Shown here: positions 6,117 through 37,419 of the stretch, piece after piece
Layout: every line of letters starts with the position of its first letter
How positions within the stretch are numbered: the stretch's first letter is position 1
DNA from: Actinomyces qiguomingii
GTDB lineage: Bacteria; Actinomycetota; Actinomycetes; Actinomycetales; Actinomycetaceae
Assembly (NCBI RefSeq): GCF_004102025.1
Contig: NZ_CP025228.1
Coordinates: forward strand, 3,924,550-3,988,549
Reading direction: 5' to 3'
Length of the DNA stretch: 64,000 nt
Notes under the pieces: generated by a model
Database searches by the model: none
Told to the model about the DNA's origin: nothing
What the model saw: only the letters and a program-made list of their open reading frames with translations
Position numbers and translations under genes: made by a program

Positions 6117-6338
6117 ACAAGATGAGCGCCCGGGACGTCGTCCATTCGCCAATGCAAATGCCGGTACTTACCCCATACGATCTAGGCGCAAACCACGCCA
6201 AGGCACTCACCTTGCCCAATCATGCCCAGCGCTTGCACAATCCTGCCGAAGCTCCCTGCGCGACTGGCACCCAACCCTGTGCAGTGCGCGCGACCGCATC
6301 CGTGCCAAGCCCCCTGCGCGACTGGCGCCCCCGACACC

Positions 6339-6550
6339 TCACCCGAGCAGTTCGACCACCTCGCGGGGGCGGCCGACCAGCGCCCGCACGCACGCCCGGT
6401 AGGTGAGGGCTACGCACCACACGAAGCCCACCAGACCGACCCACACGGCCCGCGACCACCCGACGTCCGGCACAACCAGCACCGCCACCCCGCAGCCACA
6501 CGGAAGAAGATCAAGAACCTCACCAGCAGCACGGCCCGCTGATGGAGAAG
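6339..6550 (-). pseudogene. Decayed 3' end of an MFS transporter gene (second copy)
   Basis: The minus strand encodes PDVGWSRAVWVGLVGFVWC and RACVRAL, nearly the same as the last 45 residues of the intact MFS protein at 8982-10295. A 57-bp block (6378-6434) is identical to 9027-9083. Similarity fades through the preceding region up to about 6550, including the shared ATGGAGAAG, where the frame no longer matches. No start or N-terminal part remains. The WXG/calpain gene and a membrane-protein gene lie between this relic and the intact copy. Confidence 0.7.
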
Positions 6551-19087: not shown

Positions 19088-20170
19088 TCAGGCGCGGGTG
19101 CGCTCGAACTCGGTCATGTAGTCGATCAGGGCGGTGATGCCGTCGGCGGGCATGGCGTTGTAGATGGAGGCGCGCATGCCGCCAACGCTGCGGTGGCCCT
19201 TGAGGTTGGTCAGGCCGGCGGCGTCGGCGCCGGTGAGGAACTCGGCGTCGAGGGCGGGGTCGGCCAAGGTGAAGGGGATGTTCATCCAGGAGCGGGAGCG
19301 GGCCTGAACGGGGTTGTTGTAGAAGTCCGAGGCGTCGATGGCGGCGTACAGGCGCTCGGCCTTGGCACGGTTGCGCTCACCCATCGCCGCCAGGCCGCCG
19401 GTGGACTCGATCCAGTGCAGGATCAGCCCGAGCAGGTAGATGGAGAAGGTGGGCGGGGTGTTGAGCATGGAATCGGCCTCCGCCATCACCTTCCAGTCCC
19501 AGATGGCGGGCACGTCCTCGCGGGCGCGGCCGAGCAGGTCCTCGCGGACGACGACGATCGCCAGGCCGGCGGGCCCGAGGTTCTTCTGGGCGCCGCCGTA
19601 GATGACGCCGAAGCGCTCGACGTCGAGAGGGCGGGAGAGGTAGGTGGAGGAGAAGTCGGCCACCAGGGGGACGTCACCGGCGTCGGGAATGTAGGGGAAC
19701 TCGACGCCGCCGATGGTCTCGTTGGGCGTGTAGTGCAGGTAGGCGGCGTCGGCGGGGACCGTGAAGGAGCCGGGCTCGGGGGTGGTGGTGTAGGCGGAGG
19801 CAGACTCGTCGGCGACGACGCGCACGTCCACGCCCTGGCGGCCGGCCTCCTTGATGGCCTTCTTTGACCACTGGCCGGTGTTGAGGTAGGCGGCAGTGGC
19901 GCCGCGGGCGGCCAGGTTCATGGGGATGGCGGAGAACTGGCCGGTGGCACCGCCGGCAAGGAACAGGATGCGGTAGCCCTCCGGGACGCCGGCGACGCGG
20001 CGGAAGGCGGCCTCGGCGTCGGCGGCGCAGGCGACGAAGTCCTTCTCGCGGTGGGAGACCTCCAGCACGCTCATGCCAGAGCCTTGCCAGTCGGTGAGCT
20101 CGGCGGCCGCCTGCTCGAGCACGGGCAGGGGCAGTTGTGCGGGGCCCGCGGAGAAGTTGTACACGCGCAT
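19088..20170 (-). CDS. serC: Phosphoserine aminotransferase
   Basis: 360 aa from ATG 20170 with GTGGAG upstream; a longer frame to 20515 adds 115 unrelated low-complexity residues. It starts MRVYNFSAGPAQLPLPVLEQ, the family signature, and carries the PLP lysine in YGGAQKNLGPAGLA. Residues such as GSGMSVLEVSHRE match SerC. It converts 3-phosphohydroxypyruvate to phosphoserine and is the upstream gene of a serC-serA operon. Confidence 0.93.
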   Translation of the reverse strand: MRVYNFSAGPAQLPLPVLEQAAAELTDWQGSGMSVLEVSHREKDFVACAADAEAAFRRVAGVPEGYRILFLAGGATGQFSAIPMNLAARGATAAYLNTGQWSKKAIKEAGRQGVDVRVVADESASAYTTTPEPGSFTVPADAAYLHYTPNETIGGVEFPYIPDAGDVPLVADFSSTYLSRPLDVERFGVIYGGAQKNLGPAGLAIVVVREDLLGRAREDVPAIWDWKVMAEADSMLNTPPTFSIYLLGLILHWIESTGGLAAMGERNRAKAERLYAAIDASDFYNNPVQARSRSWMNIPFTLADPALDAEFLTGADAAGLTNLKGHRSVGGMRASIYNAMPADGITALIDYMTEFERTRA

Positions 20171-20549: not shown

Positions 20550-20658
20550 CTACTACGCCGGTTCGGTCTCTACTACGCCACTTAGACCTTTGCTGAAGGC
20601 CTCCGAACCCTTCAACCAACACCTAACCGGCGTACCCAACGCCCAAGTGGCGTAGTAA
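20550..20658 (+). repeat. 109-bp structured repeat, copy 1 (left boundary of island)
   Basis: The element begins CTACTACGCCGGTT and ends AAGTGGCGTAGTA. It contains two overlapping inverted pairs: ACGCCGGTT with AACCGGCGT, and CTACTACGCCACTT with AAGTGGCGTAGTA, in the order A-B-A'-B'. A central hairpin has TGAAGG paired with CCTTCA. The ISL3-family element is inserted three bases past its right end. Other copies are at 32430-32538 and 35281-35389 in the same orientation. Confidence 0.85.
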
Positions 20659-22117
20659 AGGGGCTCTTCGCGTTTAGGGGTGTAGTAGCTGTTGTCTGAA
20701 GCCTCCGGCGTGGATGAGGCTGCGGATGGTGTAGTTGGTCAGATTCCTGAAGCCCAGGGCGATGCCGCGTAGGTGCTCCAGGCGGCCGTTGACTGCTTCA
20801 GTGGGTCCGTTGGATGTGCCGCGGTGGTCGAAGTAGGCGAGTATGTCTTCGCGCCGCTGGGCCAGGGTCTTGCCCAGCGACTTCAGCTCTTCGAGGGCGT
20901 CAGGCACGCCGGTGGTGAGGGTCTGCATCACTTTCTCCATCAGGGTCTTGCCCTGGGCGGGGGCCTTGGCGCGGTAGGCGGCCATGATCTTCTGATACAC
21001 GCCCCACATGATCTCTACCGGAGTGTTGTGGGGGTCGGCGAACAGTTGTTCGAGACGCTCCCAGCCCTTGTCGCTCACCAGGCCCGCCCCGGTGCGCAGC
21101 AGCCTGCGGGCCTTGTACAGGGGGTCGTCCTTACGGCCCCGCCGCCCGGTGGTCTCGCGCTGGGTGCGGCGGCGGCACTCATCCAGCTTGTCCCCGGCCA
21201 GCGCGACCACGTGGAAGGGGTCCATGACCTCCGTCGCGCCGGGTAGGGCCTCGGCGGCGGCGGTCTTGAAGCCCGCGAACCCATCCATCGAGACCACCTC
21301 GATCCGGCTGCGCCAGTCCTCGTCGCGTTCCTGGAGCCATTGCTTGAAGGCCTGCTTGGAGCGGCCTTCGATCATGTCCAGCAGGCGGGAGGGGCCGGTA
21401 CGGTCGCGCACGGGTGTAAGGTCGATGATGACGGTGACGTACTTGTCGCCCTTGCGGGTGTGCCGCCAAACATGCTCATCCACCCCGATGACCTCCACAC
21501 CCTTCAGACGTCCAGGATCATTGATCAAGCGGTCCTTGGCCCGCTCAAGGACGGCCTCATTGGCGGTGTGCCAGGACACCCCCAGAGCTGCCGCCACACG
21601 CGAGATGGACATGAACTCCACCCCCACGGCCCGGATCGCCCACTCCTTGGCCGCCAAGGTCAGCCTCGCCCGCTTGGCGGCCGCACGAGACGCGTCCTGC
21701 CTCCACACACGCCCACAGCCCTGGCAGCGCCACCGGCGCAGCCGCACCAGCAAGTGGGTTGGGCGCCAGCCCACCGGAACATGCGCCAGCCGCCTCGCGA
21801 CGGTCCCCACCGGGGCGCCCTGGGCCCCGCAGACCCGGCAGAACGCATCCTCCTCGCAGACCTGCAGCCGACACTCCACCAGTGCACCGCCGCCATCTAT
21901 GCGCATGCCGGTGACAGTCAGTCCCAGCGCGTCCAGGCCCAGGAAACTAGCAAAATCAGGGGCAGCAAAGGTAGTCTCGGCCATGTCGAGGTCTCCGTGA
22001 TCGGTGGTGTTCAGCAACCACCAATCATCGGGGACCTCGACCCCTACCCGCCCCTGCGACACGCGCACCCACGACTACCCCACCACCACACCCTCAAACA
22101 CGAAGAGCCAGTAAAGG
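20654..22117. mobile_element. Complete ISL3-family insertion sequence with 8-bp target duplication
   Basis: The element proper is 20662-22109. Its ends are inverted repeats: GGCTCTTCGCGTTTAGGGGT on the left, and on the right the complement of GGCTCTTCGTGTTTGAGGGT. An 8-bp direct repeat AGTAAAGG flanks it (20654-20661 and 22110-22117), the expected size for ISL3. The single transposase gene is intact, so the insertion looks recent and possibly active. It sits between the 109-bp repeat and the IetAS-like pair. Confidence 0.93.
20674..21984 (-). CDS. ISL3-family transposase
   Basis: 436 aa from ATG 21984 with GGAGACC upstream; an in-frame start at 22068 is less likely. The N-terminus holds a zinc-ribbon (CRVCGAQG, CQGCGRVW) and an HTH, as in ISL3 transposases. 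The DDE core is visible in IGVDEHVWR, VSMDGFAGFK and GPTEAVNGRLEHLRG. The C-terminus RSLIHAGGFR is family-typical. Full length, with no frameshift. Confidence 0.93.
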   Translation of the reverse strand: MAETTFAAPDFASFLGLDALGLTVTGMRIDGGGALVECRLQVCEEDAFCRVCGAQGAPVGTVARRLAHVPVGWRPTHLLVRLRRWRCQGCGRVWRQDASRAAAKRARLTLAAKEWAIRAVGVEFMSISRVAAALGVSWHTANEAVLERAKDRLINDPGRLKGVEVIGVDEHVWRHTRKGDKYVTVIIDLTPVRDRTGPSRLLDMIEGRSKQAFKQWLQERDEDWRSRIEVVSMDGFAGFKTAAAEALPGATEVMDPFHVVALAGDKLDECRRRTQRETTGRRGRKDDPLYKARRLLRTGAGLVSDKGWERLEQLFADPHNTPVEIMWGVYQKIMAAYRAKAPAQGKTLMEKVMQTLTTGVPDALEELKSLGKTLAQRREDILAYFDHRGTSNGPTEAVNGRLEHLRGIALGFRNLTNYTIRSLIHAGGFRQQLLHP

Positions 22118-22205
22118 CGCTGATGACGAATGCTGCCCCCTGATTGAGTCGGTGGTCCGCGCTACCGTTACAGGAAACGCAAGCGGGAGAGGCAATCGCA
22201 GCGTT

Positions 22206-22247
22206 GCTAGCGACTCCAGCATCGCTAGCCAAGGTAGCGTTGCTAGC
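22206..22247. repeat. Three GCTAGC palindromes at 18-bp spacing upstream of ietA-like gene
   Basis: GCTAGC occurs at 22206-22211, 22224-22229 and 22242-22247, exactly 18 bp apart, within near-identical units (GCGTTGCTAGCGA). The last site ends 51 bp before the ATPase start codon. Regular spacing close to two helical turns suggests an operator array, but a simple tandem duplication is possible. Confidence 0.5.
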
Positions 22248-22298
22248 GATGACCGACCAACCTGCATGTCCGCAGATTCAGCCCCGGGAGGTGAGAGC

Positions 22299-23255
22299 AT
22301 GGCACGAGCGGATCTACTGTTGGACCTGGTTGAGGCCGAGCGCCGGGGCGACCGCGACCGTTTTCGGATCGTGGTCGAAGGCCTGATCGCCGAGGAACGC
22401 GCCAACCAGCATCACCTGCTCGCAGATCGCTTGTCTGAGATCATCACTACGACTGGGCATGGGCTGCCGCGCGATGATCATGCTGCATCGGTACGCGACC
22501 TTGTTCATGAGGTGGTGGTGCGACGGCGTCTAGATGACCTGGAACTAGCCCCGATACCTCGCCGCGTTGTGGCTGAGCTCATTGAGGAGCAGCAGCGCGC
22601 GGATCTGCTGCGCAGCTACGGGATCGAACCACGCCATCGTCTACTGTTGTCGGGTCCCCCCGGCAACGGCAAGACGAGCGTGGCCGAGGCAATCGCGGCC
22701 GAGTTGATGTTGCCCTTCTATGTGATCCGCTACGAAGGCGTGGTCTCCAGTTTCCTCGGGGAGACCGCGGCCCGGCTAGACAGCGCCTTCGAGTTCGTGC
22801 GGACACGCCGTTGCGTCCTCTTCTTCGACGAGCTCGACACGATTGCCAAGGAGCGGGCGGATGAGCATGAGACGGGGGAGATCAAGCGCGTCGTCTCCAC
22901 GCTACTGCTCCAGATCGACCGCCTGCCCCCACATGTCATCCTCGTGGGGGCGACCAACCACAGTGAGCTCCTGGACCGCGCCGCATGGCGGAGGTTCCAG
23001 GTGCGTACTGAGCTGAAGGCGCCATCGAGAGTTCAGGCAACCAGGTTCCTGGAGAGGCTCGCCGACCGACTTGGCGGGGACCTCGGCTACACGCCGCGCA
23101 CCCTGGCTGACAAGCTCGTAGGTGCGAGCTACGCCGAGTTGGAAGAGTTCGCTCTGGATGTCCGACGCCGAACGATCCTAGAGACGCCTGGCGCGGACAC
23201 ACGCAGGATCGTTAAGGAACGGCTTGAACACTGGCAGGGATCAGTTCAATCGTGA
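22299..23255 (+). CDS. AAA+ ATPase, IetA-like component of an IetAS defence pair
   Basis: 318 aa from ATG 22299 behind CGGGAGGTGAGAG. About 90 helical residues precede a classical AAA+ core: Walker A GPPGNGKT with K125, Walker B VLFFDELD with D177/E178, sensor-1 ATNH, and arginine-finger candidates in RAAWRRF. A helical lid ends the protein. The partner subtilisin-like gene overlaps its stop codon (GTGA). An AAA ATPase next to an S8 protease is the composition of ietAS, shown by others to restrict phages and first described in plasmid incompatibility. The assignment rests on gene pairing and motifs and needs a profile search. Confidence 0.75.
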   Translation: MARADLLLDLVEAERRGDRDRFRIVVEGLIAEERANQHHLLADRLSEIITTTGHGLPRDDHAASVRDLVHEVVVRRRLDDLELAPIPRRVVAELIEEQQRADLLRSYGIEPRHRLLLSGPPGNGKTSVAEAIAAELMLPFYVIRYEGVVSSFLGETAARLDSAFEFVRTRRCVLFFDELDTIAKERADEHETGEIKRVVSTLLLQIDRLPPHVILVGATNHSELLDRAAWRRFQVRTELKAPSRVQATRFLERLADRLGGDLGYTPRTLADKLVGASYAELEEFALDVRRRTILETPGADTRRIVKERLEHWQGSVQS

Positions 23256-25858
23256 CCGCGCAGATACGTCCCCTCCTGGCATTCAACCCTCCACACGTGC
23301 CTGAAGGCGGCAGGGTCAAGCCAAAGGGTCACCCGCTCCCGAAAGTCGCGGGTCCCGGAGGCAAGCGCCAGGGTGAACGACTGGGCCCCAAGTTCACAGA
23401 GCTTGTTGAGGCCTTCGCCGCCCGGCGGGTTGAGGCTGGGGCGGACACGCCAACGGAGGTGGATCCCTCGCTGGTCATCGTGCTCGACCTGGCAGGCTCA
23501 GTCCCGGACTTCCACAAAGCGGTGGACAAGATCCAGGGCCTGGAGTTTCTCGCTGAGATGCTTGGGGAGGAAGTCGATCCTGACAACGATTTCTACATGA
23601 AGGGCCGCACCGACAAGCCGGTTCAACACTCACTCTATCTCGCCATGACCAACGCGAAGGCTGTCGACCAGTTGATCAGCCTGTTCAAGCGTTGGCAGGA
23701 GGACCCTGATGCCAAGTTCGAACACGGTCTGAGCAAGTTCAAGGGCGCCTTCGCCCAACTCGCAGACATCCGTAGATGGGGAGCCGAGGATCGTGTGCGA
23801 GAGACCGGCCTCCTCAATAAGTGGCGGGAAACTCTCGACATGGTTGGTCAATCCTACAGCCCAGTGCGTGTAGAAATTGAACTGTGGTACCGCCACGACC
23901 GAGGACGGCGCTCCGGCGCTGAGCATGCGATCACACGCATCCTGGATGACTGTGGTGGGAAGATCGTCAGTCGTGCACAGATCGAGGAGATCGGATATCA
24001 CGCTCTTCTCGCGGAACTTCCTCGGCAGCAGGTGCAGACCGTCCTGGAACGCGGTCCGCAGGCGATTCGGTTGCTGAGGGCAGAAGACATTATGTTCGTA
24101 AGCCCTTTTCAGCCCATGAGCATCTCCTCGCCTCATTACTCAAAAGCCACCCCCACTTCCTTCCCTGCCAGGTACCCCAAAGATGGCAAGCCTCGGATCG
24201 CGCTCTTGGACGGGCTCCCCATGCAGAACCACGACGCTTTAGCAGGCAGGCTCCTTGTCGATGACGCCGACGGCGTTGAGGACCGCTATCAGCTCGCTGC
24301 GCGCTCACACGGCACCGCCATGGCATCCCTCATCATCCACGGAGACCTGTCCACACCGGGAGAGCCGCTGGGACGTCCGCTCTACGTGCGCCCAATCATG
24401 CAGTCAGAGGAGCAGACACCCGGGGAGTTCGTAGAACGGGTCCTGCCTGACACGCTGTTCGTGGACCTTCTTCACCGCGCCGTCAGGCGCCTTCTCGTGG
24501 GAGAGGCAGGGAGACCGGCCTGGGCGCCGACTGTCCGTATCATCAACCTGTCCATCGGTGACTCTGCGAGACCCCTCATCAAAAGAATGAGTCCAGTCGG
24601 ACGTCTTCTGGATTGGCTAACAGTCGAGCACAACGTCCTGTTCATCGTCAGCGCCGGCAACCACACGGCACCAATCTCCATCCCCACGGAGGCAGCACAG
24701 AATCAGGAAAACGCCCGATCCGCGGCGGAGCAAGCTGTCCACAACTCCGAGCTCCTCCGCGGGATCCTTCCACCGGGAGACTCCATGAACGCGTTGACCG
24801 TTGGCGCGATCCACGCCGACGGGGCACCCGATCCAGTCGAGTCCTCCACGACCTGGGATATCACTACCCCCGGCGCACCCGCCCTCTACTCGGCGACCGG
24901 CCCGGGCGTCGGACGGTCCATCAAACCAGATTTGTACCACATTGGCGGACGACTTCTTTTTACGACACCTGTGCCATCACACTCGCCAGACTCTAACATC
25001 ACCCTGTCCGCAGCTCGAGCCAGCCGAATAGGACCTGGCGTGCAGGTTGCCGCACCCGGTGACGGTGGGCATCTCAACCGAACAACATTCGATCGTGGCA
25101 CAAGCCACGCCACTGCACTCGTCACGCGGGAGGCTTCCTCACTATTCGACCTTCTGGAGACACAACACGACGGCGCGGATGCGAGAACACTTCCTAATGC
25201 CTTATTCCATCCGCTTCTCGTCAGGGCACTGCTCGTGCATTCATGCTCTTGGGGTGACTGGCGAAAAGCCATCGCCCCTCAGTCCTCGCGCAAGACACTG
25301 AGCCCACTGTTCGGCTATGGCCGCCTTGACCCTGAGCGGGCTCGAGGCGCCGTCAACCGGGCAGTCGTCGTCGCAGGAAACGAGATCGGAATCGATGAGC
25401 GTCACACGTACGAGCTGCCGCTCCCCTCGTCGATCCGCAGCAAGGCCGAGTGGCACCGGCTCGTCATCACCCTCGCCTACTGGGCGCCTACAACGCAAGG
25501 TCTCAATTCCTATCGGGCTGCGAAGGTCTACTTCACTACCCCAGATACCAAGCTCGCTGGTGGAGACCGCGTGGACGCCTATCACAACGCTGTACGGCGT
25601 GGAAGCCTCCAGCACGAGGTCATCGACGGGTCCAAGGCTATGACATTCAATGACGGTGCCACCTTCTCAATTCATGTGGAGTGCATGCGAGACGGCCAGA
25701 AGACCGGTCCCATTGAACGCATCCGCTACGCCCTCGTCGTCTCGATCGAAACGGCGACCTCGACGTCCTCAACGATCCATGACGAAGTTCGCGCTGGTCT
25801 CATCCATATGCGCGACCGGGCAGTCATCCAGCAGAGCGACCGGGTTCGCGTCAGATAG
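23252..25858 (+). CDS. Subtilisin-like serine protease, IetS-like component of an IetAS defence pair
   Basis: 868 aa from GTG 23252, overlapping the ATPase stop by 4 bp. No signal peptide, so it is cytoplasmic. Residues 1-310 form an uncharacterised N-terminal domain. The S8 catalytic triad is intact: D320 in ALLDGLPM, H353 in RSHGTAMAS, S618 in GTSHATAL; the oxyanion asparagine is N470 in VSAGNHT. A C-terminal beta-rich domain of about 180 residues follows (ELPLPSSIRSKAEWHRLVIT). Coupling to an AAA ATPase is the IetAS pattern, where ATPase and protease are both required for defence in characterised cases. The protease substrate is unknown. Confidence 0.78.
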   Translation: MTAQIRPLLAFNPPHVPEGGRVKPKGHPLPKVAGPGGKRQGERLGPKFTELVEAFAARRVEAGADTPTEVDPSLVIVLDLAGSVPDFHKAVDKIQGLEFLAEMLGEEVDPDNDFYMKGRTDKPVQHSLYLAMTNAKAVDQLISLFKRWQEDPDAKFEHGLSKFKGAFAQLADIRRWGAEDRVRETGLLNKWRETLDMVGQSYSPVRVEIELWYRHDRGRRSGAEHAITRILDDCGGKIVSRAQIEEIGYHALLAELPRQQVQTVLERGPQAIRLLRAEDIMFVSPFQPMSISSPHYSKATPTSFPARYPKDGKPRIALLDGLPMQNHDALAGRLLVDDADGVEDRYQLAARSHGTAMASLIIHGDLSTPGEPLGRPLYVRPIMQSEEQTPGEFVERVLPDTLFVDLLHRAVRRLLVGEAGRPAWAPTVRIINLSIGDSARPLIKRMSPVGRLLDWLTVEHNVLFIVSAGNHTAPISIPTEAAQNQENARSAAEQAVHNSELLRGILPPGDSMNALTVGAIHADGAPDPVESSTTWDITTPGAPALYSATGPGVGRSIKPDLYHIGGRLLFTTPVPSHSPDSNITLSAARASRIGPGVQVAAPGDGGHLNRTTFDRGTSHATALVTREASSLFDLLETQHDGADARTLPNALFHPLLVRALLVHSCSWGDWRKAIAPQSSRKTLSPLFGYGRLDPERARGAVNRAVVVAGNEIGIDERHTYELPLPSSIRSKAEWHRLVITLAYWAPTTQGLNSYRAAKVYFTTPDTKLAGGDRVDAYHNAVRRGSLQHEVIDGSKAMTFNDGATFSIHVECMRDGQKTGPIERIRYALVVSIETATSTSSTIHDEVRAGLIHMRDRAVIQQSDRVRVR

Positions 25859-25863
25859 TGGAT

Positions 25864-26304
25864 CTAATCCACCGGGAGTCGCAGGATTTCTGCCACTGCC
25901 TGGCGGTCTACCAACTGCATCGACGAGAGGTCATCCTCATGTACACCGAGCAGTCCCGCAAGCTGCGACTCAAGTTCATCGTCCGTCTCGGCTCTCTCAA
26001 GCAAAGAGGTGATGCAGGCCGCGACTTCTTCCGTAGCAAGCCCCTCCAGTGCCTTCCTCCACTCCAGCACAGTGCGATCGCGGTCGTCGACCGCTGCGTT
26101 CGACAGTCGGCGTAGTGATGCCGCGATAGCCGCGGCGTGAACGAGGATATTCAGAAGCTCCCGCTGAGCCTCTTCCGTACCAAGGTCATCACGCACAAGC
26201 CTTACGGCATCGGACAGGTCCGCAGGAGTCACCTCGCTACCGACCACCTCGTCGACCTCCCGCGGCGTCAGTTCCTCTCGTATTTCTTCATCTTGATGTG
26301 TCAC
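25864..26304 (-). CDS. Acidic helical protein, unknown
   Basis: 146 aa from GTG 26304 with GGAGGAAG upstream. Rich in Glu/Asp and Leu and predicted mostly helical (LLNILVHAAAIAASLRRLSN, ACITSLLERAETDDELESQL). No membrane segment or known motif. It lies 42 bp downstream of the 26347-26814 gene in the same direction and ends 5 bp from the IetS-like stop codon on the other strand. No function can be assigned. Confidence 0.55.
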   Translation of the reverse strand: MTHQDEEIREELTPREVDEVVGSEVTPADLSDAVRLVRDDLGTEEAQRELLNILVHAAAIAASLRRLSNAAVDDRDRTVLEWRKALEGLATEEVAACITSLLERAETDDELESQLAGLLGVHEDDLSSMQLVDRQAVAEILRLPVD

Positions 26305-26346
26305 CTTCCTCCAAAGGCGACCGGCCGCAGGCCTTCCGCGTTCCAG

Positions 26347-26814
26347 CTACCAGGGATGCAAGTGTTTTGTTGCCACATATGTGATAGCAGCCGTTCCAAC
26401 AGAGGTCACAGCACAGGCAATAAGCGTTCCCATGTTGCCTTCGTCAACCGTGTCGTCTTCGTACGGATCGTCTGCTACCCACTCCGAAGAGTTCACCACC
26501 TGGTTCGTGTCATCATCCAGCTCGCCACTGGCGAAGGCCCCCGGCGTCCTCCGCGACTCTGCTAGGTGCGTACCCTCGTGGCCCGTTTCCACCCTCCTAT
26601 ACCACTGCTCACTGAGTTCGACCTCGTCGCTCGCCGTCATCCCGCCCTTCCTTGGGTCCCAAGGATCCTCATCCTCGGCGTCGGCTGGGAACACTGTACG
26701 CAGGGCGCTGCGGAGACTGCCGCGTCTCAACCAGATTGGGTAGTGGGTGTCGCCGTTGCGCAACACGGCATGTGGTGACGCTGGCGACCTGCTCGGAGCG
26801 CTGGTTCCTGTCAT
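26347..26814 (-). CDS. Acidic protein with a C-terminal membrane anchor, unknown
   Basis: 155 aa if started at ATG 26814; ATG 26640 with AAGGAAGGG upstream gives 97 aa and may be the true start. The central part is strongly acidic (DEVELSEQWYRR, WVADDPYEDDTVDEG). The last 27 residues form one hydrophobic helix (MGTLIACAVTSVGTAAITYV) with a short polar tail, a tail-anchor topology. It is upstream of the 146-aa gene, so the two probably form an operon. I do not recognise the family. Confidence 0.5.
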   Translation of the reverse strand: MTGTSAPSRSPASPHAVLRNGDTHYPIWLRRGSLRSALRTVFPADAEDEDPWDPRKGGMTASDEVELSEQWYRRVETGHEGTHLAESRRTPGAFASGELDDDTNQVVNSSEWVADDPYEDDTVDEGNMGTLIACAVTSVGTAAITYVATKHLHPW

Positions 26815-26854
26815 ACGGTGCGGCTACAGTGAGGGGAATCGGAAGGAGGTCCGC

Positions 26855-27058
26855 ATGGCAGCACCCACGAACAACCTGGTCCGCGTGTTCACGGAGGATG
26901 AGCTAAAGGCCCGGGAGTCGGATGTGGTCGACAAGCTCACGCGTCGCTTCGGCAGTCTTGAGCGTGCGCTTGAGCGCGAGGAGGACTGGGACTACGACGA
27001 AGACGAGGCCACCCTCTTCTCCGAGTACCACGCCGTCACCTTCCTCCTGTCCGACTGA
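26855..27058 (+). CDS. Small acidic protein, first gene of a two-gene module
   Basis: 67 aa from ATG 26855, with an excellent GGAAGGAGG site. The sequence runs RVFTEDELKARESDVVDKLT, FGSLERALEREEDWDYDEDE and a hydrophobic end AVTFLLSD. Its stop codon overlaps the next start (TGATG), so the two are translationally coupled. A small acidic protein before a larger basic one recalls toxin-antitoxin order, but I cannot match it to a known family. Confidence 0.65.
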   Translation: MAAPTNNLVRVFTEDELKARESDVVDKLTRRFGSLERALEREEDWDYDEDEATLFSEYHAVTFLLSD

Positions 27059-27801
27059 TGGAGGACTTCTCGGCGCAGGAACGCCAGACCCACGACTTTG
27101 CGGCCCAGACCACCGCCACCGTGCGCACGGTGTGCCCCGATGCGCCCGATTTCGTCGCTCAGGCCGCCATTCGCAAGCGCGTCTGGAGGGCGACAGTGGC
27201 TACCCCCGGAGACAAGCCAGTGACGCTGACCGTGGGCGGGAGGCGCCTGCTAAAGCTGAAGGTCCGCTACGAGTGCACGGCGTCAGCGCGCCATTCCTTC
27301 ATGCTCGTCGAGAAGTCCGCCTTCACCCTGCTCCCTGCCCAAGGGAGTGAGCCTCTGGTACGGCTGGAGTATCTACGCCACCCGCACTCCGACGTGCCGT
27401 GCTGCCACCTCCAGGTCCACGCCCGTCGCGATGACTGGACTTTCGCCATGACCCGTAACGGCGTCGGAAGTCCCAGGCGCGAAGTGGCCCGACGAGCCAG
27501 CGCAGAGCGAGCCCCTCAGCTGTCTGATATCCACTTTCCTGCGGGAGGTCCGCGACTGCGGCCCACCCTTGAGGACTTCCTGGAGATGCTCGTCCATGAT
27601 CTCGGCGTGGACCACAGTGAGGGCGCCCTGGAAGTCCTCAAACAGCAGCGTGTGGCCTGGCGAACCGATCAGGTGCGCGCCATGGCGGCCTCGCTTCCCG
27701 ATGTCGCCGCAGAGGTGCTGCGCGATGCGGGGTACACGGTGACTGCACCGGACGACTGCAGCATTCATCCCGACCGGCAGGCCTGGCTAACCCGCTACTG
27801 A
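27058..27801 (+). CDS. Unknown protein, second gene of a two-gene module
   Basis: 247 aa, coupled to the 67-aa gene by a 1-bp overlap. The middle part has a beta-rich look with conserved-looking His/Cys (RHPHSDVPCCHLQVHA, SDIHFPAGGPRLRPTLEDFL), then a helical tail (LPDVAAEVLRDAGYTVTA). No signal peptide or membrane helix. The function is unknown. It sits between the IetAS-like pair and an IS-scarred region, so a defence or stress role is possible but unproven. Confidence 0.6.
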   Translation: MEDFSAQERQTHDFAAQTTATVRTVCPDAPDFVAQAAIRKRVWRATVATPGDKPVTLTVGGRRLLKLKVRYECTASARHSFMLVEKSAFTLLPAQGSEPLVRLEYLRHPHSDVPCCHLQVHARRDDWTFAMTRNGVGSPRREVARRASAERAPQLSDIHFPAGGPRLRPTLEDFLEMLVHDLGVDHSEGALEVLKQQRVAWRTDQVRAMAASLPDVAAEVLRDAGYTVTAPDDCSIHPDRQAWLTRY

Positions 27802-27866
27802 CCACCGAGCGCGCCCAAGCCCCACAGCCGACCAGCAGTGCCCAACGCGCGCACCGAGACTCGGGT

Positions 27867-28032
27867 TCAGTCGCGCATGTCCTGCTGCGGCAGGGACTTC
27901 ACGATCTGCTGGGTGCACACGGAGACAGTGCTGACGCGGGCGATCAGCTCGAGCAGATAGTAGGGCTGGAGCGCCGCCATGTCCCCTGGCCCGAGCGCCG
28001 GGTCAATGAACAACCTGGCGTTTGACGCCGCC
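27867..28032 (-). pseudogene. C-terminal gene fragment cut by the ISAs1-family element
   Basis: The minus strand encodes ARLFIDPALGPGDMAALQPY followed by YLLELIARVSTVSVCTQQIV and a stop at 27867. It reads like the end of a real protein. The frame meets the IS target duplication at 28033, and no matching N-terminal part is seen beyond the element, where a different gene ends at 29412. The 5' part is therefore lost. Confidence 0.5.
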
Positions 28033-29397
28033 GGGTGGTGGTCAGGGGGTCGGCAAAGTCGGTGTCTGGGTTGGGGGTTGTTAGGGGTTTTCGGCGTGTT
28101 GGTGGGGGTGCGGCGCGATCTTCCGGAGACGATGGAGGTGTTCGAAAAAGCCATTGCCTTGGAAGGTCGCGCCGCTGTGTCATCATCCCCCACGCCTGCC
28201 CTGTCGCGCCAGCCCCTGACCGGGATGTTCGCCACTGTCCCGGACCCGCGTGATCGGCGCGGGGTGCGTCACCGCCTGGATGTGGTGCTGGCTTTGGCGG
28301 CGGTAGGGGTGCTGGCCGGCTGCCGCACCCTGCTGGCGATCTGGGAGCACGCCCAGGACCTGACCGGCGGCCAACTACAGCAGCTGGGACTACCACAAGA
28401 CCGGGGCATCCCCTCGGAGTCGACGATCCGCCGCGCCCTGGCCGGCCTGGACGCCGACGACTACCGGCGCCAGGGTCGCGTCGTGGATGCTCACCCGCAC
28501 CGGCACCATCGACGGACGCAGGATTATCGCGGTGGACGGGCAAGACCATGCGCGGCGCCAAACCCAAGAACAACAACAGCGGAGACGGTGATGATGGCGG
28601 CGGTGATGGTGGCGGTGGGGCCCCGCACCTGCTGGCGGCGCTGGACCAGGGCACCGGGGCGGTGCTCGCCCAGCAGCGCGTAGAAGACAAGACCAGTGAG
28701 ATACCCGCCCTGAAACAGCTGCTGGCACCCCATGACCTTACCGGAGCGGTCGTGACTGCTGACGCACTGCACACCCAGACCGACACAGCGCAGTGGATAC
28801 GCGACCGGGGCGCCGACTACCTGCTCACGGTCAAGAACAACCAGCCCAGTCTCAGGGCGAAACTGAAGGCGCTGCCCTGGAAGGACGTCCCCGCCGTGTC
28901 GGGGGTTGACTGCTCTCATGGGCGGCGGGTGCGCCGCACCATCAAAGCCGTGGCAACGCCGGACTGGATCGACTTCCCCGGCGCCTCACAGGTGCTTCAG
29001 GTGCGTCGCACCCGCACCACCCACACCCGCGGTAAGAACAGCAAGCGCAGCACCGAGGTCGTCTACCTCATCTGCTCCATACCGCCCGAGCAGGCCCCGC
29101 CCGAGCAAGTCGCCGCCTGGATACAAGGCCACTGGGCGATCGAGAACCGACTCCACTGGGTACGGGATGTCACCTATGACGAGGACCGCCACCAACTGCG
29201 CACCGGCTCCGGGCCGCAGGTGATGGCGACCCTGCGGAACCTGGCCATAAGCCTGATCCGCACCATCTACGACGACCCCATCACCACCGGCATCGCCTCA
29301 GCCAACCGGGCCATGACACGCAAACCCACCAAAGCCATCAAACTCCTAACAACTCCATGACCACCCAACGACTTTGCCGAGCCCCTGGGGTGGTGGT
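28033..29397. mobile_element. ISAs1-family insertion sequence with 10-bp target duplication
   Basis: The element is 28043-29387. Its ends are inverted: CAGGGGGTCGGCAAAGTCG on the left, and CGACTTTGCCGAGCCCCTG on the right. GGGTGGTGGT flanks it as a 10-bp direct repeat (28033-28042 and 29388-29397). The transposase is frameshifted twice, so the copy is not autonomous. A solo left end of a related copy lies at 31087-31258. Confidence 0.85.
28226..29360 (+). pseudogene. ISAs1-family transposase, disrupted by two frameshifts
   Basis: The frame from 27979 to 28683 carries the N-terminal part (MFATVPDPRDRRGVRHRLDV, ESTIRRALAGLDADD). Near 28460-28475 the reading moves to another frame (MLTRTGTIDGRRIIAVDG), and near 28535 an extra base moves it again into the frame running to 29360 (MRGAKPK, VVTADALHTQ, TVKNNQPSLRAKLK, HWAIENRLHWVRDV). 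The DDE-type H-repeat-associated family is clear. A glycine/aspartate-rich stretch near 28580-28620 is unusual and may be an expanded repeat. Confidence 0.85.
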
Positions 29398-29411
29398 GGG
29401 GCTGGGTTTGG

Positions 29412-30263
29412 TTAGTGTCGTTTTTGGGTTTCGGCTTGGTCGGTGAGGTAGGTGATGGTGCGGACGATGTTGTATGGGGTGGTGGTGTTGGTGGTGGTGA
29501 TGGTTCCGACCACGGGGGTGGTGGTGCCGCCGTTGGGGGTGTAGGTGGCTTTCCAGGTGGTGGTAAGGGTGGTGGTTACGTCGGTGGCTGTGCGGGTGTA
29601 GCGGTGGGTGAGGGTCTGGTTGGGCCAGGGTGCGCCGGGGTCGGTGGTGGTTGTGGTGGTGCCGTCTCCCCAGTTCCAGGTGTAGGAGGTGGGGGTGGCG
29701 TGGATGGTTACTTCGGTTCCGGCTACGGTGGTGGTTAGTACCTGGGTGTCGGGGCTGGTGTAGACGATGAAGTCCTTGGTCAGTAGTACTTCTGGGCCTG
29801 GGGGTTGGCGGGTGATGCCTGAGCCCTCGGCCAGTAGGGTGGACACGTCGGTGGAGGAGATCGTGATCACCACGGTGGTGCCGTCGGAGGCTTGGACGCT
29901 GGTTGCGGGCGCGGCATCGGTGGCGCACTCGTCAGGATCAAGCACAATAGCACGCATTCCGACGTTCACGCCCATTCTCATACCGAAGCACATGGCATAA
30001 GACAAACTCGCCATAAAAGCGGCCCGCTCATCGAACACCCCACCAGTGCCGCCCTCAACAGTGACACCGCCGCCACCCGACGCACCCGGAACCGACACCA
30101 CCACATCATAAGACACCCCACCAGAAACAATCACCGAACTACCAGATCCGTGGGCGCTGTATTGATCAGGCCGCTGTGTGGGGACGACAGCATATGTGGG
30201 TGCACCTAGCAATAGTGTAACGAGCGTGAATCCTGCGCACAAGGCGAATAGGTTGCGTTTCAT
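29412..30263 (-). CDS. Secreted PKD-domain protein
   Basis: 283 aa with an N-terminal signal peptide (MKRNLFALCAGFTLVTLLLG, cleavage near PTYA). The C-terminal half holds a PKD-type beta-sandwich with the hallmark YTWNWGDGTTTTTTDPG and a threonine-rich end. It follows the lipoprotein gene with a 4-bp ATGA overlap, so the two are coupled. PKD proteins of this type in actinobacteria are surface or secreted, probably in adhesion or protein binding; no enzyme motif is seen. Its stop lies only 15 bp from the ISAs1 target duplication. Confidence 0.75.
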   Translation of the reverse strand: MKRNLFALCAGFTLVTLLLGAPTYAVVPTQRPDQYSAHGSGSSVIVSGGVSYDVVVSVPGASGGGGVTVEGGTGGVFDERAAFMASLSYAMCFGMRMGVNVGMRAIVLDPDECATDAAPATSVQASDGTTVVITISSTDVSTLLAEGSGITRQPPGPEVLLTKDFIVYTSPDTQVLTTTVAGTEVTIHATPTSYTWNWGDGTTTTTTDPGAPWPNQTLTHRYTRTATDVTTTLTTTWKATYTPNGGTTTPVVGTITTTNTTTPYNIVRTITYLTDQAETQKRH

Positions 30264-30934
30264 TCTGAGTCCTCATCATTGGTGATTTGGAGTGCCTCAA
30301 CGGCCCAATCATTGCCGCTCCAATATAGTTGGATTAATAACTCATGATCGAATTTGTCGACCTGTTGCGATGGTGCGGAAGGCGTTGGATGTTCTGTGTA
30401 GCCTTCGGATGTCACTTGTGTGCGTACGACGTAGCGGTTGGGGTCTTCTTGGTCCGTCCACCACTCTAGCGGAGTGATCTCCTGCACCCACGGATCCGTC
30501 CAGCCGCCTGCATCGTGTATTTCGGCCGCTTCGGACCCCACCCCGTTGCAGAATTCGCAGTCCTCTGTGCTCATGTTCTGCCAGATGTCCAGGTCGCCGG
30601 TCGCTCCCACGTAAGGAACTAGCTCGAGGAAGTATGTGGCTGCGGTGATGGCGCCTTCAGGGGTGAACTGTGGGGTGTAGGGATCAGGCGGCTCCATGGC
30701 CAGGGCGGTGGCTCTGGCCGCGGCCTGTTCCGGCGACAGCGTGGGCGCGGCACTAGCACTAACAGTCGCTGATGGGGTCCAGGTGGGACTGAAACCACTG
30801 GTGGCGCTTCCACGCGAACAACCCCCACCCAGTGCCAGCCAGGCAACCACCACGGACAGGGCCGCCAGACGAGCGAACCCGACCGCAGCCCGGCGCCGAT
30901 GCGGCATCGAATGGAGTAAGGGGACGGTAGACAT
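30260..30934 (-). CDS. DUF6318-like lipoprotein
   Basis: 224 aa from ATG 30934 with GAGGAGG upstream; the frame is open to 31045. The N-terminus has basic residues, a hydrophobic stretch and a lipobox-like end (LALGGGC, Cys39), with an atypical Gly at -3. A Ser/Thr/Ala linker leads to a domain with TAATYFLELVPYVGATGDLD and the paired cysteines in EDCEFCNGV. This matches my memory of the DUF6318 family, common in Actinomyces beside PKD proteins. It is the upstream gene of that pair. The function is unknown. Confidence 0.65.
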   Translation of the reverse strand: MSTVPLLHSMPHRRRAAVGFARLAALSVVVAWLALGGGCSRGSATSGFSPTWTPSATVSASAAPTLSPEQAAARATALAMEPPDPYTPQFTPEGAITAATYFLELVPYVGATGDLDIWQNMSTEDCEFCNGVGSEAAEIHDAGGWTDPWVQEITPLEWWTDQEDPNRYVVRTQVTSEGYTEHPTPSAPSQQVDKFDHELLIQLYWSGNDWAVEALQITNDEDSE

Positions 30935-31086
30935 AACGGGCACGGCCTCCTCGGTGAGGACCCTAACGGGACTAACAGGCACGCCAGCCAAAGCGCCGAC
31001 GCCAGACAACCGTACCCACACACCCACCACAACCGCCACCCCCAACCAACACCCTGTGGAAAACCTACCGACTTCAGCAGTAACGA

Positions 31087-31258
31087 TGGGGGCTCCGCAA
31101 AGTCGTTGGTTGGGTTTGGGGTGGTTAGGGGTGTTCGGCGTGTTGCTGCGGCGCGATCTCCCGGAGACGATAGGTGGTGCTAAATCAGCCTTGTCACGGA
31201 AGGTCGCGCCGCTGTGTCATCAGCCCCCACCGCCCCCTTGTCGCGCCAGCCCCTGAAT
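31087..31258 (+). mobile_element. Solo left-end fragment of an ISAs1-family element
   Basis: The sequence GGGGGCTCCGCAAAGTCGTT and the following 150 bp align with the left end of the element at 28043-28230, including GTTCGGCGTGTTG, CGGAGACGAT, AAGGTCGCGCCGCTGTGTCA and GTCGCGCCAGCCCCTGA. It stops where the transposase frame would continue. It abuts the truncated DUF4143 gene, so an old insertion and deletion probably removed the missing half of both. Confidence 0.7.
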
Positions 31259-31287
31259 TACGATGGGCGCTTAATCCGACAGGATGA

Positions 31288-32345
31288 TTGTTGGTGCCGC
31301 CGTCATCGGGGCCCCCGCGCCTGTGTCTGTATGCCGCCCGCGCCTCCTTCCTCGACGACGCCACCCGCCAAACCGGCTCCGGACGCTTCCTGCGCATGCG
31401 CGAACGCGCCATGACGTGGTTCGAACGCGGCACCTCTACGGGCACGTTGAGCTTCGGTACCCTCATTGCTGGCGGCCGTCCCGCTGCAAATGCGACCGCG
31501 AGCTCTTACCACGACGTCGTCGACGCGCTCGCACACACAGGCTTCCCGGCGCTGACCAGGCTGGAACCCGCAGCAACGGCGGTGACATTGAGCGGCTGCC
31601 AGGACGACTTCGTCCGGACGGACCTGGGGCGACTGGCCCGGACGCGGCGCGCCCCTACAGTCATGCGCGCACTCATCCGTGCACTGGCGCTGGCCACAGC
31701 GGCCGAGGTCTCCTCGCGCACCCTGGCCAGGGACCTTCGCCAGGTCACCCCGGATATCTGCCCCGAGACCGTAGCCCACCACGTGGAACTACTGGAGCGG
31801 CTGTTCGTCGTCGAGCAGATCCCCGCCTGGGCTGTGGGGGCCGCCCTCACGCGCCCGCCTGCGCACCGTGCTTATGTTCCACCTGGCCGACCCCGTACTC
31901 GCCGTCACCGCATTGAGCGCGGACGCCGCACGACTCACGGTAGACCCTGAGATCACCGGCTTCGTCTTTGCCAGCGCCGTCGCCCACCATCTGCTCGTTT
32001 TCAGCGAGGCGCTCGACGGCCAGGCGTACCACTACTATGACTCCAATGGCCACGCGCTTGACTCCGTACTCATCTTTCCCCCGCGGCAGTTAGGCCGCAG
32101 TCGAGGTGAAACTGGGCGCCTCCCATTTCGAGAAGGGCGCCCGCTGAGTGACCCGCACCGTGCAGCAGATTGGCACCTCCGTGGTCAGGGACCGGGTCAA
32201 CAGCTGGCCGCCGGCCGAGAAAACCGCAGATTGGCACCTCCGTGGTCGGGGACCCGGTACTCAAACTGGTGGTCACCGGCACCGGCCCCACGGCGACCCT
32301 GCCAGACGGCATCGTAACCTGCCCGCTGAACGTCCTCGGACCCTG
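31288..32345 (+). pseudogene. AAA-ATPase/DUF4143 gene, 5'-truncated and frameshifted
   Basis: The remains read LDDATRQTGSGRFLRMRERA, MTWFERGTSTGTLSF, then in a second frame from about 31865 MFHLADPVLAVTALSADAAR and HYYDSNGHALDSVLIFP, then AVEVKLGASHFEKGAR, then VVTGTGPTATLPDGIV. These follow the order of DUF4143 ATPases from the post-ATPase region to the end. The Walker A half is absent. At least two frameshifts and a 61-bp-spaced repeat (GCAGATTGGCACCTCCGTGG at 32165 and 32226) disrupt it. Confidence 0.7.
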
Positions 32346-32429
32346 GCGCAGATGCCTCGGGCGCCACGCACCGCCCGGCCCGGTCCAGCTCCGCCCACCC
32401 CAACCCGTCCGACCCCGCCCCGCGGGCGT

Positions 32430-32552
32430 CTACTACGCCGGTTCGGCCTCTACTACGCCACTTAGACCTTTGGTGAAGGGCTCCGAGGCCTTCAGGAAAG
32501 GTCTAACCGGCGTACCCAACGCCCAAGTGGCGTAGTACAAGTGGCGTAGTAG
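32430..32552 (+). repeat. 109-bp structured repeat, copy 2, with a duplicated right end
   Basis: Same layout as copy 1: the core is 32430-32538, and an extra CAAGTGGCGTAGTAG repeats the right end to 32552. Its central hairpin is the strongest of the three: TTAGACCTTT pairs with AAAGGTCTAA around TGAAGG/CCTTCA. It ends 33 bp before the AlbA_2 pseudogene start. Confidence 0.85.
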
Positions 32553-32585
32553 CGAGCCGACGTCGAGCACCCCTCTCCGATTCCG

Positions 32586-33932
32586 GTGTTCATCCGCCGC
32601 ACCGCGTGGAACACCGCAGCCACCGACCAGCTCCGCATCATTGGCACCGACCAGCAGATGCTTGAAGTCAAGTCGGGCATCGGTAAAGACATCCGCGCCA
32701 CCCTCAGTGCCATGTCCAACTCTGCGGGCGGAACCATCCTCATCGGCCTAGACGAAGCACAGGGCTTCGCCCCCGTCCCGGGACTGGACGCGACTCACGC
32801 CCGGAAGCGGCTTGTGTCCCGCTGCGAGCAGATGACCCCGGTGGTCCGTCCCGTCATTGAGGTCGTCCTGATAGAAGGGGCTCCGGTCGTCGTCGCCACG
32901 ATTCCGGAGATCGAACCCTGCCACAAGCCCTGCTACGTCACCGACCAGGGGCAATACGGAGCTTCCTACACCAGATCGGGCGACGGCGATCGTCGCTTAA
33001 CCCAGTACGAGGTCGAACGCCTTCCGGAGGAGCACACTCAATCCCGACGGGATGAGGAGTCGGTGACTGAAGCCGGTCTTGGCAACCTCGACGACGACGC
33101 CCTGGCCGCCTTCATCTCCAACCAGCGGGCGGTGCGTCCAAAAACCTTCGCCAACAGCGACGACGGACGCTGCCCGTGAACGCACGCCATGCATCACCCG
33201 CAGCATCCCACCCTCGCCTCGCTAATGGCCCTCGGCGAGTACCCTCAGCAGTTCTTCCCGCGACTAAGCGTCACTTTCGCCGTTTTCCCCGGTACTGACC
33301 GGGGTGTCGTCACCGAGGGCGTACACCTGCTCGACAGCGCCACTCTGACCGGTCCGATTCCGGAACTCGTCAAATCCGCCGTCGATGCCGTTTGTCGCCA
33401 CATACGCACAGCCAGCCTGGCGGAAGACACCTTCCGCACAGACCTGCCGGACTAGCCGCTCGTCGCCGTGCGGGGGGCGGTGGTAAACGCACTCATGCAC
33501 CGAGACTACTCACCGGCGGCGCGCGGCGCCCAGGTCCAGGTCCAGGTCCAGGTCCAGAGTCAGACTCAGGCCAGCATGTTCGTCGACCGGCTCGAGATCA
33601 TAAATCCCGGCGGCCGCTACGGTGCCGTTACGGTAGAGATTCTAGGAAAGGCAGGAGTGAGCGCGAGCCGCAACCAGACCCTATCCATCCTGTTGGAGTC
33701 CACCACCTTCCCCGGTGGCGGCGCGGCGGCAGAGAATCGCGGAACCGGAATCGCGGTCATCCAGCAGGCCCTCGCCCAAGCTCTCCTACCACCGCCCGAG
33801 ACCAGGAGCACGATCGCCAGCTTCTCGATTACCTTTCGCCGAGGGCGCGTCGCACCGCGGGAGCGGGACTTCACAGTCTACTTAACGATCAGCTTCACAC
33901 ACTGTGAGGTTAGGTGCGAAGCCAATCGTTAA
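32586..33932 (+). pseudogene. AlbA_2 / RecG-like ATP-binding protein, interrupted by stop codons
   Basis: One reading frame carries the whole gene but with two stops. The AlbA_2 (Schlafen-type) domain is at the start (MLEVKSGIGKDIRATLSAMS, NSAGGTILIGLDE). After TGA 33177 comes LASLMALGEYPQQFFPRLSV; after TAG 33453, in a DLPD-stop-PLVAVR context where relatives have Y, comes [29 protein letters not shown] and [10 protein letters not shown], the GHKL-like C-terminus. A GGTCCA hexanucleotide repeat (about 33530-33556) adds Gln-Val units. The frame is otherwise preserved, so decay is recent. Confidence 0.75.
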
Positions 33933-33990
33933 GACCCGCGCGTGCAGTCATAAGGACCCCGGTCAGTGGACTCCTGCCCCTTCAGGCCCC

Positions 33991-35022
33991 CTACAGCCAA
34001 AGGTCACGACGCCGTCGCACCCCGCGCGTGACCTCGGGCGGGAACAGGCTTTCCACCCGCCGCACCAACCCCTCGGGATCCGCCAGCTCCCGCCACTCGA
34101 AACGGTGTACCGTCCACCCGCCACGGCGCAGCACCATTTCCCGCTGCTTCTCCGCATGCACGTCCGCCGAGGTAGCCAGCTTGCCGTACCCGTCGAACTC
34201 CAGGTCGACCATGGCGCTGTCCACAGCAACGTCAAGAAAGTACTCGCGCGTATCGTCACCAATCCATCGTCGCTGCGTCACCGCCTCGGGCACCCCGGCC
34301 ACGCCGACCGCCCAACGCAACACGCTCTCACCCGGAGACTCCGCAAACGGATCCGCGAGCGCCACCGCTCTCCTGGCACGACGTTTGCCGTTGCGTCGCC
34401 CCTGCGCCTCAACCATCTGCATCAACCGCTCGCGCGCCACGTCAACCTCCATCTCGCCGTAGCAACGCCGGTTGAAGCGATCGGGTCTGCACACCACCCG
34501 CAGAGCGGCGTCCACCACGGGCAGCGACTCACGTACCGGCAGGTCAAAGGCACAGTCCATGGCGGTGCGCAGCGGCGTCGTCACCCGCAGCCCGCCCACG
34601 TTGATGACCTCCTCGGGCGCTGGCGCAATCGTGGAGCGGTGCAGACTCACCTGGCGCCCGCGACGCCTGCCCGCCGGCATCGCGTACATGACGGCCGGGA
34701 GGGTGATCGCGCCATGTGTCCGCTTCCCGGGTACCGCCAAACGAACGTTTGGCTCCGCCTCCAGGATAGGCAGTCCCAGCACCACCGCCGCTGCCTCGTG
34801 GGTCAGGGCGATTGCCGACGGCGAAGCCCGCAGCGCCGCCTCGCAGCGCGCCAGCGTGACCAGTTGCTTAACGCGCCACCGAGGCGTGTCCGTTGGGGGC
34901 GCGACCATATAGCTGCCGCGGGCGATGCGCACAAGATCGCGCCGCCCGGCCAGGCCGCACTTGGAGCGATCGGCGGTGAACAACATGCGTGGACGCTCGG
35001 GCGGAGTTGGGTATGACTGCAT
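33991..35022 (-). CDS. AbiEi-like protein with C-terminal DUF559-type nuclease domain
   Basis: 343 aa from ATG 35022; the frame is open to 35175 but that part is unlikely. The N-terminal half resembles AbiEi-type antitoxins of actinobacteria (GLAGRRDLVRIARGSYMVAP, ALTHEAAAVVLGLPI, RVTTPLRTAMDCAF). The C-terminal half has the Vsr/DUF559 pattern: SMVDLEFDGYGKL, AEKQREMVLRRGGWTVHRFE, W, with the acidic and E-x-K/Q residues of a restriction-like fold. Such proteins are widespread solitary genes of unclear role. No AbiEii toxin is adjacent. It ends the accessory island next to repeat copy 3. Confidence 0.6.
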   Translation of the reverse strand: MQSYPTPPERPRMLFTADRSKCGLAGRRDLVRIARGSYMVAPPTDTPRWRVKQLVTLARCEAALRASPSAIALTHEAAAVVLGLPILEAEPNVRLAVPGKRTHGAITLPAVMYAMPAGRRRGRQVSLHRSTIAPAPEEVINVGGLRVTTPLRTAMDCAFDLPVRESLPVVDAALRVVCRPDRFNRRCYGEMEVDVARERLMQMVEAQGRRNGKRRARRAVALADPFAESPGESVLRWAVGVAGVPEAVTQRRWIGDDTREYFLDVAVDSAMVDLEFDGYGKLATSADVHAEKQREMVLRRGGWTVHRFEWRELADPEGLVRRVESLFPPEVTRGVRRRRDLWL

Positions 35023-35280
35023 TCCAGCAGGATGACCTCGGGCCGACGGCGGCGCCACCGCGCCCTTCGAACTCTGTGGATTGGGGTGTCGCGAACACTG
35101 CCTGTGGATACCGGTGGGGTCGGTAAGCCGCACGGTGATTCCCCAGCGATGCTCAGTGAACGACACGCGCGTCACCGGAAGCCGACCTGGTCACGGACGC
35201 CGGCGCCAGCCAATCCGCCCTCGGCCGGCACGTCCCAACCCAGCCCCGGCCGGCACATCCCAACCCAGCCCCGCTGACGT

Positions 35281-35389
35281 TTACTACGCCGGTTCGGTCT
35301 CTACTACGCCACTTAGGCCTCTGCTGAAGGGCTCCGTAGGCTTCAATCAACGCCTAACCGGCGTACCCAACGCCCAAGTGGCGTAGTAG
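35281..35389 (+). repeat. 109-bp structured repeat, copy 3 (right boundary of island)
   Basis: It begins TTACTACGCCGGTT and ends AAGTGGCGTAGTAG. The central hairpin changes TTAGAC/GTCTAA of copy 2 to TTAGGC/GCCTAA, a paired substitution that keeps the stem. It lies between the DUF559-type gene and the cca region, 14.6 kb from copy 1 and in the same orientation. Confidence 0.85.
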
Positions 35390-37353: not shown

Positions 37354-37419
37354 CGACCTAAGCCTGCCACGCGGAGAGCAAGCAAGCCGATCGGCGGGCG
37401 GACCGCCTAGAGTGTCCCC

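Follow-up and report, generated by a model that had tools for sequence, protein, structure and literature searches.

BOX-type interspersed elements are modular, and their internal module occurs in variable number as one tandem block. The attC arrays of integrons consist of imperfect palindromes of similar length that lie in the same orientation, are homogeneous within a locus and differ between species, the attC motif being RYYYAAC on the 5' side and GTTRRRY on the 3' side. Miniature inverted-repeat transposable elements (MITEs) of the ISL3 family are short non-coding derivatives of insertion sequences (IS). Repetitive extragenic palindromic (REP) sequences, bacterial interspersed mosaic elements (BIMEs) and REP doublets forming hairpins (REPINs) are reportedly the subject of a paper by Bertels and Rainey from 2011. 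According to Di Nocera 2013 (PMC3733652), a REP is a palindrome of 20-40 bp that carries a GTAG or CGTC tag, left unpaired, on one of its ends. Here we analyse an element of 109 bases, named R together with its relatives, which occurs three times in a stretch of 64,000 nucleotides from Actinomyces qiguomingii (contig NZ_CP025228.1, positions 3,924,550 to 3,988,549 of the forward strand; hereafter the window). The genome of this organism, 3,988,549 bp, is designated G000, and those of its relatives carry similar handles. R is a new repeat family of MITE/REP-like kind, present in this bacterium and in its relatives from the rumen. With a probability of about 0.6, we regard it as a non-coding, clade-restricted interspersed repeat that is partly carried by ISL3-type elements and then altered and homogenised. 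No description of R was found in titles or opening abstract text from the searches made.

Structure and distribution of R

The three elements named in the original prediction were all found where it had placed them and in a single orientation, with pairwise identities of 97/109, 99/109 and 97/110 (88-91%):

20550..20658, + strand: R copy 1, on the serC side; the 8-bp target duplication left by an ISL3 insertion reaches into its outer right end
32430..32538, + strand: R copy 2, internal; one additional right-arm fragment, AAGTGGCGTAGTAG, follows directly
35281..35389, + strand: R copy 3, on the cca side; its downstream flank is similar to the flanks of several other R copies

R measures about 105-110 bp; its inverted 20-bp modules (TACTACGCCNNTT) form a dyad that flanks a hairpin. 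The left arm is (CGTC)TACTACGCCNNTTNG, in which the variable NN is commonly GG or AC, and the right arm is its inverse, frequently with TACCCAACGCC-type modules. The interlocked order A-B-A'-B' proposed for the inverted pairs was borne out, ACGCCGGTT..AACCGGCGT crossing CTACTACGCCACTT..AAGTGGCGTAGTA, and R copies of the relatives have an inner module, TTAACAACGCC, whose pairing partner on the opposite arm is GCGTTGTTAA. The central stem had been said to change on both sides together. TTAGAC/GTCTAA in copy 2 and TTAGGC/GCCTAA in copy 3 were indeed present, but copy 1 reads TTAGAC/ACCTAA and its stem is broken. Since the varying pair of this stem is G-C in 15, A-U in one, G-U in one and unpaired in six of the 23 distinct G000 copies, the paired change is that of a single copy. 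The number of modules differs between copies. Some copies are also locally multiplied in tandem at a spacing of about 220-325 bp, as seen in units of about 325 bp at two G000 regions and in two copies 222 bp apart at 89.7-90.0 kb. Near some copies lies a second repeat with units of about 20 bp (GTTGGACCGTCTGGCTGCCG..CAGACGGTCCAA), at about 1170-1440 of locus L016 and at 105490-105943 of a joined stretch of G024.

A covariance model made from 24 G000 copies gave 78 matches in this genome (150 of 1326 candidates scored; weakest match listed, E 2.3e-13), corresponding to 39 places mostly matched on both strands. The element is thus not local to the island, 36 of the 39 copies being outside it. 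R has no gene of its own, and none of 38 places examined in G000 is inside a gene called by a simple codon-usage script. Away from leaders of clustered regularly interspaced short palindromic repeats (CRISPR), many of the 30 neighbouring proteins scanned correspond to ordinary metabolic genes. When the same model was run with stricter filters and 79 candidates scored per genome, 14 genomes out of 49 from the genus, G000 included, had R matches. High copy number (54-79 matches) was limited to G000, G010, G024, G027, G028, G034 and G041, whose SerC scores place them nearest to the window, and seven further genomes had 2-16 matches each. A pattern scan of named genomes matched eight stretches, from A. 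glycerinitolerans, A. ruminicola, A. succiniciruminis and A. ruminis, which belong to these close relatives.

Copies were compared in a set of 112, that is, 115 fetched matches of at least 40 bits minus three duplicates (G000 39, G024 28, G034 15, G010 12, G028 8, G027 6, G041 1, G015 1 and two copies of unassigned genome). After leaving out 14 orthologous-like pairs, homology between non-orthologous copies usually ended near the edges of R, extending more than 50 bp beyond in 94 (left) and 93 (right) of 3205 pairs from which CRISPR-CRISPR pairs were excluded. Homology of more than 100 bp past R was found on the left in 34 and on the right in 133 of 3305 pairs, and in 30 and 47 of 3205 without CRISPR-CRISPR pairs. 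The idea of R as the left end of mobile cassettes in general was discarded, as the longer right-flank homology is mainly due to CRISPR units.

ISL3-ended carriers and local homogenisation

The carrier evidence comes from inverted repeats of the ISL3 type. Such ends (at most 6 mismatches of 24) were located within 900 bp of 57 of the 112 R copies, 80 end matches facing R and 22 facing away. Seven copies, five in G024, one in G010 and one in G000 at 3922662, are enclosed by facing ISL3-type inverted repeats with 8/8 target duplications, in units of 456-1076 bp that are all too short for the 1.4-kb transposase gene. Mispaired flanks used as control gave 1/3336, an expectation of 0.03 against the seven seen. 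The suggestion of a non-autonomous mobile element is therefore supported for this subset of seven copies. Nothing pointed to R alone as the mobile unit, since the bounded units span 456-1076 bp and R lacks ISL3 ends of its own. From these sequences R appears to be, at least sometimes, a passenger in short ISL3-type elements. A complete ISL3 element is present in the window itself:

20662..22109, - strand: ISL3-family IS of 1448 bp, transposase at 20674-22068, inserted into R copy 1 at its outer edge
20654..20661, + strand: 8-bp target duplication AGTAAAGG of this IS, overlapping the edge of R; the second copy is just past the other IS end

It is one of ten copies with identical transposase in G000, nine of which have perfect 8-bp target duplications (that at L222 is imperfect). 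R was also considered as a target of ISL3, because the window IS sits in the edge of R and ISL3-like ends abut several copies, yet only one of the ten full-length IS is at R and this was rejected.

Homogenisation was studied between the core genes serC and cca, where G000, G034, G010, G024, G028 and G027 have 3-4 R copies each, all oriented from serC to cca, with one at either side. Cross-species pairing and within-locus identity were obtained from the 106 of 112 copies with at least 60 bits, leaving out the third G027 locus copy. Mean identity within the locus was 0.88 in G000, 0.98 in G010, 0.96 in G027, 0.90 in G028, 0.95 in G034 and 0.77 in G024, and identity of locus copies with the other fetched copies of the same genome (2 to 35 per genome) was 0.62-0.77. 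Copies at this locus resemble one another far more closely than they resemble the remaining copies in their genome. At either end of the locus R of G000 and G034 shares 64-65% identity, the flanking core genes sharing about 90-96%, and R copies of G034 and G027 are each closer to their locus-mates than to their orthologs. This pattern points to concerted evolution of the locus copies in at least three lineages.

As a possible course of events, ISL3-type carriers moved by the resident ISL3 transposase would scatter R, and slippage, tandem duplication and gene conversion would afterwards alter and homogenise it. At the serC-cca hotspot, the several copies in the same orientation may give homology for RecA-type exchange. 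A number of observations weigh against this account. For 105 of the 112 copies no duplication-bounded unit was seen within the 900 bp examined, and their mode of arrival is inferred. Four of the seven units are alike in size and R position, possibly forming one family, and just one of the ten full-length ISL3 copies touches R. In the origin-proximal stretches compared (G010, G024, G034) there was no clean empty site for R alone; the single insertion seen there, of 454 bp in G024 and empty in G010 and G034, contains R plus another repeat and shows no clear duplication. G024 is an exception to local homogeneity, with one odd copy, and copies of G010 and G024 match their orthologs (0.98-1.0) no less closely than they match one another. 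Finally, doubly changed cells in the paired positions of 103 distinct copies across species (the distinct rows of the pairing) numbered 187 against 145 in shuffles, none of 300 shuffles being as high, and this excess could reflect selection on the palindrome.

The serC-cca island

The window copies of R lie among the following genes:

19088..20170, - strand: serC, core gene bordering one side; detected in 48 of 49 genomes
22152..25858, + strand: defence pair IetA (AAA ATPase) and IetS (S8 protease); PADLOC E 1e-144 and 1e-296
33991..35175, - strand: gene conserved at this locus, with 83-85% identity in G034, G027, G010 and G024; weak AbiEi-like match, E 1e-6
35827..37485, - strand: cca, core gene at the other edge

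The core genes proposed as edges were confirmed, serC by NCBIfam and cca by Pfam PolyA_pol/HD. The description of the island as defence-rich stands for one clear system, IetAS, whose NCBIfam matches fall below the curated cut-offs, and for the weak AbiEi-like gene, but no other clear system was found. A plus-strand gene at 33904-35016 was discarded as antisense, the conserved gene being that of the minus strand. An ISAs1-family transposase is present at 28548-29360; its match leaves out the early part of the family model, covering positions 97-314 of 314.

The contents of the serC-cca interval differ among genomes. In G041 the contig ends in one R copy. In G013, three shorter relatives of R (68-bp matches at L168:5066-5133, 6301-6368 and 15206-15273) are in the same spacers, one of them inverted, and in G017 a gap of about 150 bp separates cca from serC, with no R found in the stretch. 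G005 and G026 (L162, L167) have IetAS directly next to serC without an R match in those stretches, although both genomes have some R matches elsewhere; the serC side thus accepts IetAS where no R was found.

Alternative roles and known repeat systems

The position of R in this locus raised the possibility of a cassette-boundary or recombination site, at which serC-cca modules, and also CRISPR units, would be swapped, either through a site-specific recombinase or because recombination concentrates at R. We consider this unlikely. It would agree with the same-orientation copies at both sides in six genomes, with the local density of R in G000 (3 copies against 0.145 expected, P 0.0005, at a locus picked beforehand by the original prediction) and with 19 of 75 inner synteny breakpoints being 50 bp or less from R, where 3.9 would be expected for uniform positions. 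However, noncoding positions, taken from the gene calls of the codon-usage script, give an expectation of 16.6 for the same count (p 0.29), and the 62 breakpoints near noncoding sequence one of 13.7 (p 0.07). Compared with noncoding positions, the breakpoints show no significant enrichment near R, so neither an exchange site nor the attachment site first proposed is supported. The IetAS pairs beside serC in G005 and G026, as well as the many other R copies between ordinary genes, also speak against it. The claim that R bounds the island is right as geography in six genomes, but not beyond that, given the dispersal of most own-genome copies and the breakpoint result. The island association is mostly geography, R marking spacers between modules. 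Where a repeat flanks an island on either side and also occurs genome-wide, as here, it need not be the machinery of that island. Another explanation makes R a part of a CRISPR-seeding unit, in which R, leader and possibly array are copied together to new sites and R is the end of the unit or a distal element of the leader; this seems to us quite improbable. In G000, 8 of 39 R copies adjoin arrays with the 37-nt repeat GTCAGGAAGCACCTCGCACCTCCAGGTGCATTGAGAC. The leader motif occurred 28 times in 6 of 15 genomes searched, and at 22 of these 28 loci the first CRISPR repeat is located at +224 to +226. R was found 117-212 bp upstream of 17 of the 28 (G000 8/12, G010 2/4, G024 2/4, G027 2/4, one of these a weak 17-bit match, G028 2/2 and G034 1/2), always in the same orientation (17/17). 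At R-bearing non-orthologous loci homology mostly starts near the left edge of R, and at loci without R it starts at about -40 to -140. The arrays are separate, since a 16-mer was shared by one spacer pair only among 143 spacers from arrays within 1.5 kb of a leader. Against seeding, no R accompanies 11 of the 28 leaders, 31 of 39 G000 copies are away from any leader, and five G000 loci have 540-890 bp in common, extending past R. An ISL3-like end is downstream at only one of the eight G000 CRISPR loci, and an inverted R is downstream at 2 of 28 leader loci, both in G010. Since orthology between species was seen for several pairs of R and leader, part of this association is inherited.

The original prediction also suggested a structured RNA, to which a transcription terminator may be added; we judge both very improbable. 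The window copies do fold much better than shuffles (z -4.6 to -6.8), and copies fold strongly on either strand. This equality argues against an RNA, as mean folding energy was -55.8 for the top and -56.0 for the bottom strand (Wilcoxon p 0.63) and mismatches across copies were 268 G.T and 254 A.C, so that no RNA strand is favoured. Neither the window nor a set of 20 repeat loci matched any Rfam family. The named structure was paired in 83.9% of cells in the 23 distinct G000 copies against 86.1% in shuffles, and four other covariation measures were likewise under the shuffle means. Sliding the partner positions lowered pairing to 33-47%; the palindrome is therefore real, but its variation in G000 is not compensatory. 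Across species, Watson-Crick cells reached 72.8% against 71.0% in shuffles and further pair types 28 against 28.5, and from the table of pairs the changed ones seem to follow a few subfamilies. Template switching at palindromes could create paired changes without selection. If palindromy acts at all, it would do so on double-stranded DNA rather than on a single RNA strand. Just as hard to credit is a binding array for a chromosome-organising protein, with 20-bp spacing of two helical turns, kept off the terminus. In G000 the open reading frame starting at base 133 is presumably that of DnaA, and a dif-like site, searched with a pattern that we take to be dif (exact in 7 of 8 relatives searched), is at 1,862,878. 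No R match was found around this site in 1.145-2.619 Mb (1.475 Mb), and in 27 clusters the largest-gap test gave p 0.00025 and the Kolmogorov-Smirnov (KS) test p 0.001. R copies of G034 also lean to the origin (KS p 0.013; 23 listed copies of about 36), but those of G024 show no such bias (KS p 0.43; 65 of about 72) and include some less than 80 kb away from dif on either side. The avoidance of the terminus is striking in G000, partial in G034 and absent in G024, and it is retained here as an observation.

Of these findings, the tie to CRISPR leaders most deserves to be followed. R-leader units might be mobile CRISPR seeds, a palindrome fused to a conserved leader and copied to new sites where fresh arrays grow, with R as the left end or as a part needed by the adaptation machinery; we hold this to be quite improbable. 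If true, such seeds would give one genome a dozen small separate arrays. The tie also opens a testable question, namely how new CRISPR arrays are founded. In G000 there are twelve small dispersed CRISPR loci that have one leader and repeat type in common but hardly any spacers (for example L024:1996-2837 and L213:11223-11692), eight of them with R upstream. Two G027 leaders (L276 and L286) have R upstream, weak at L276, and no recognisable array. The word "leader" does not appear in PMC12231136.

Compared with known systems, R resembles integron attC arrays in length, imperfect palindromy, orientation, within-locus homogeneity and difference between species, but its copies are scattered, and this identity was rejected because the core motif, in the form described above, was in the expected order in none of 112 copies, in reverse in 23 and in neither in 89. 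R is like BOX in its variable module number and unlike it in having inverted arms on both sides. With REP, BIME and REPIN sequences it shares being intergenic, palindromic, multi-copy and clade-specific. In contrast to REPs and REPINs, R consists of 20-bp modules in long dyads, and the Y1 transposase of REPs (RAYT, REP-associated tyrosine transposase; PF01797) had no match in G000, the control being positive in 5 of 14 genomes. The Y2 (IS91-type) transposase PF04986 likewise had none, but neither did the control genomes. The CGTC/GTAG ends of R, typically CGTCTACTACGCC..GGCGTAGTAGACG, pair with each other by eye, so that R has no unpaired tag in the sense of the definition given above. ISL3-family MITEs are matched by the seven copies between facing ISL3 repeats with 8-bp duplications, and differ in that R itself has no ISL3 ends and that no such unit was found for the other 105. 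R is a further repeat family beside these systems, with local homogenisation and with ISL3-ended units as a carrier demonstrated for part of its copies.

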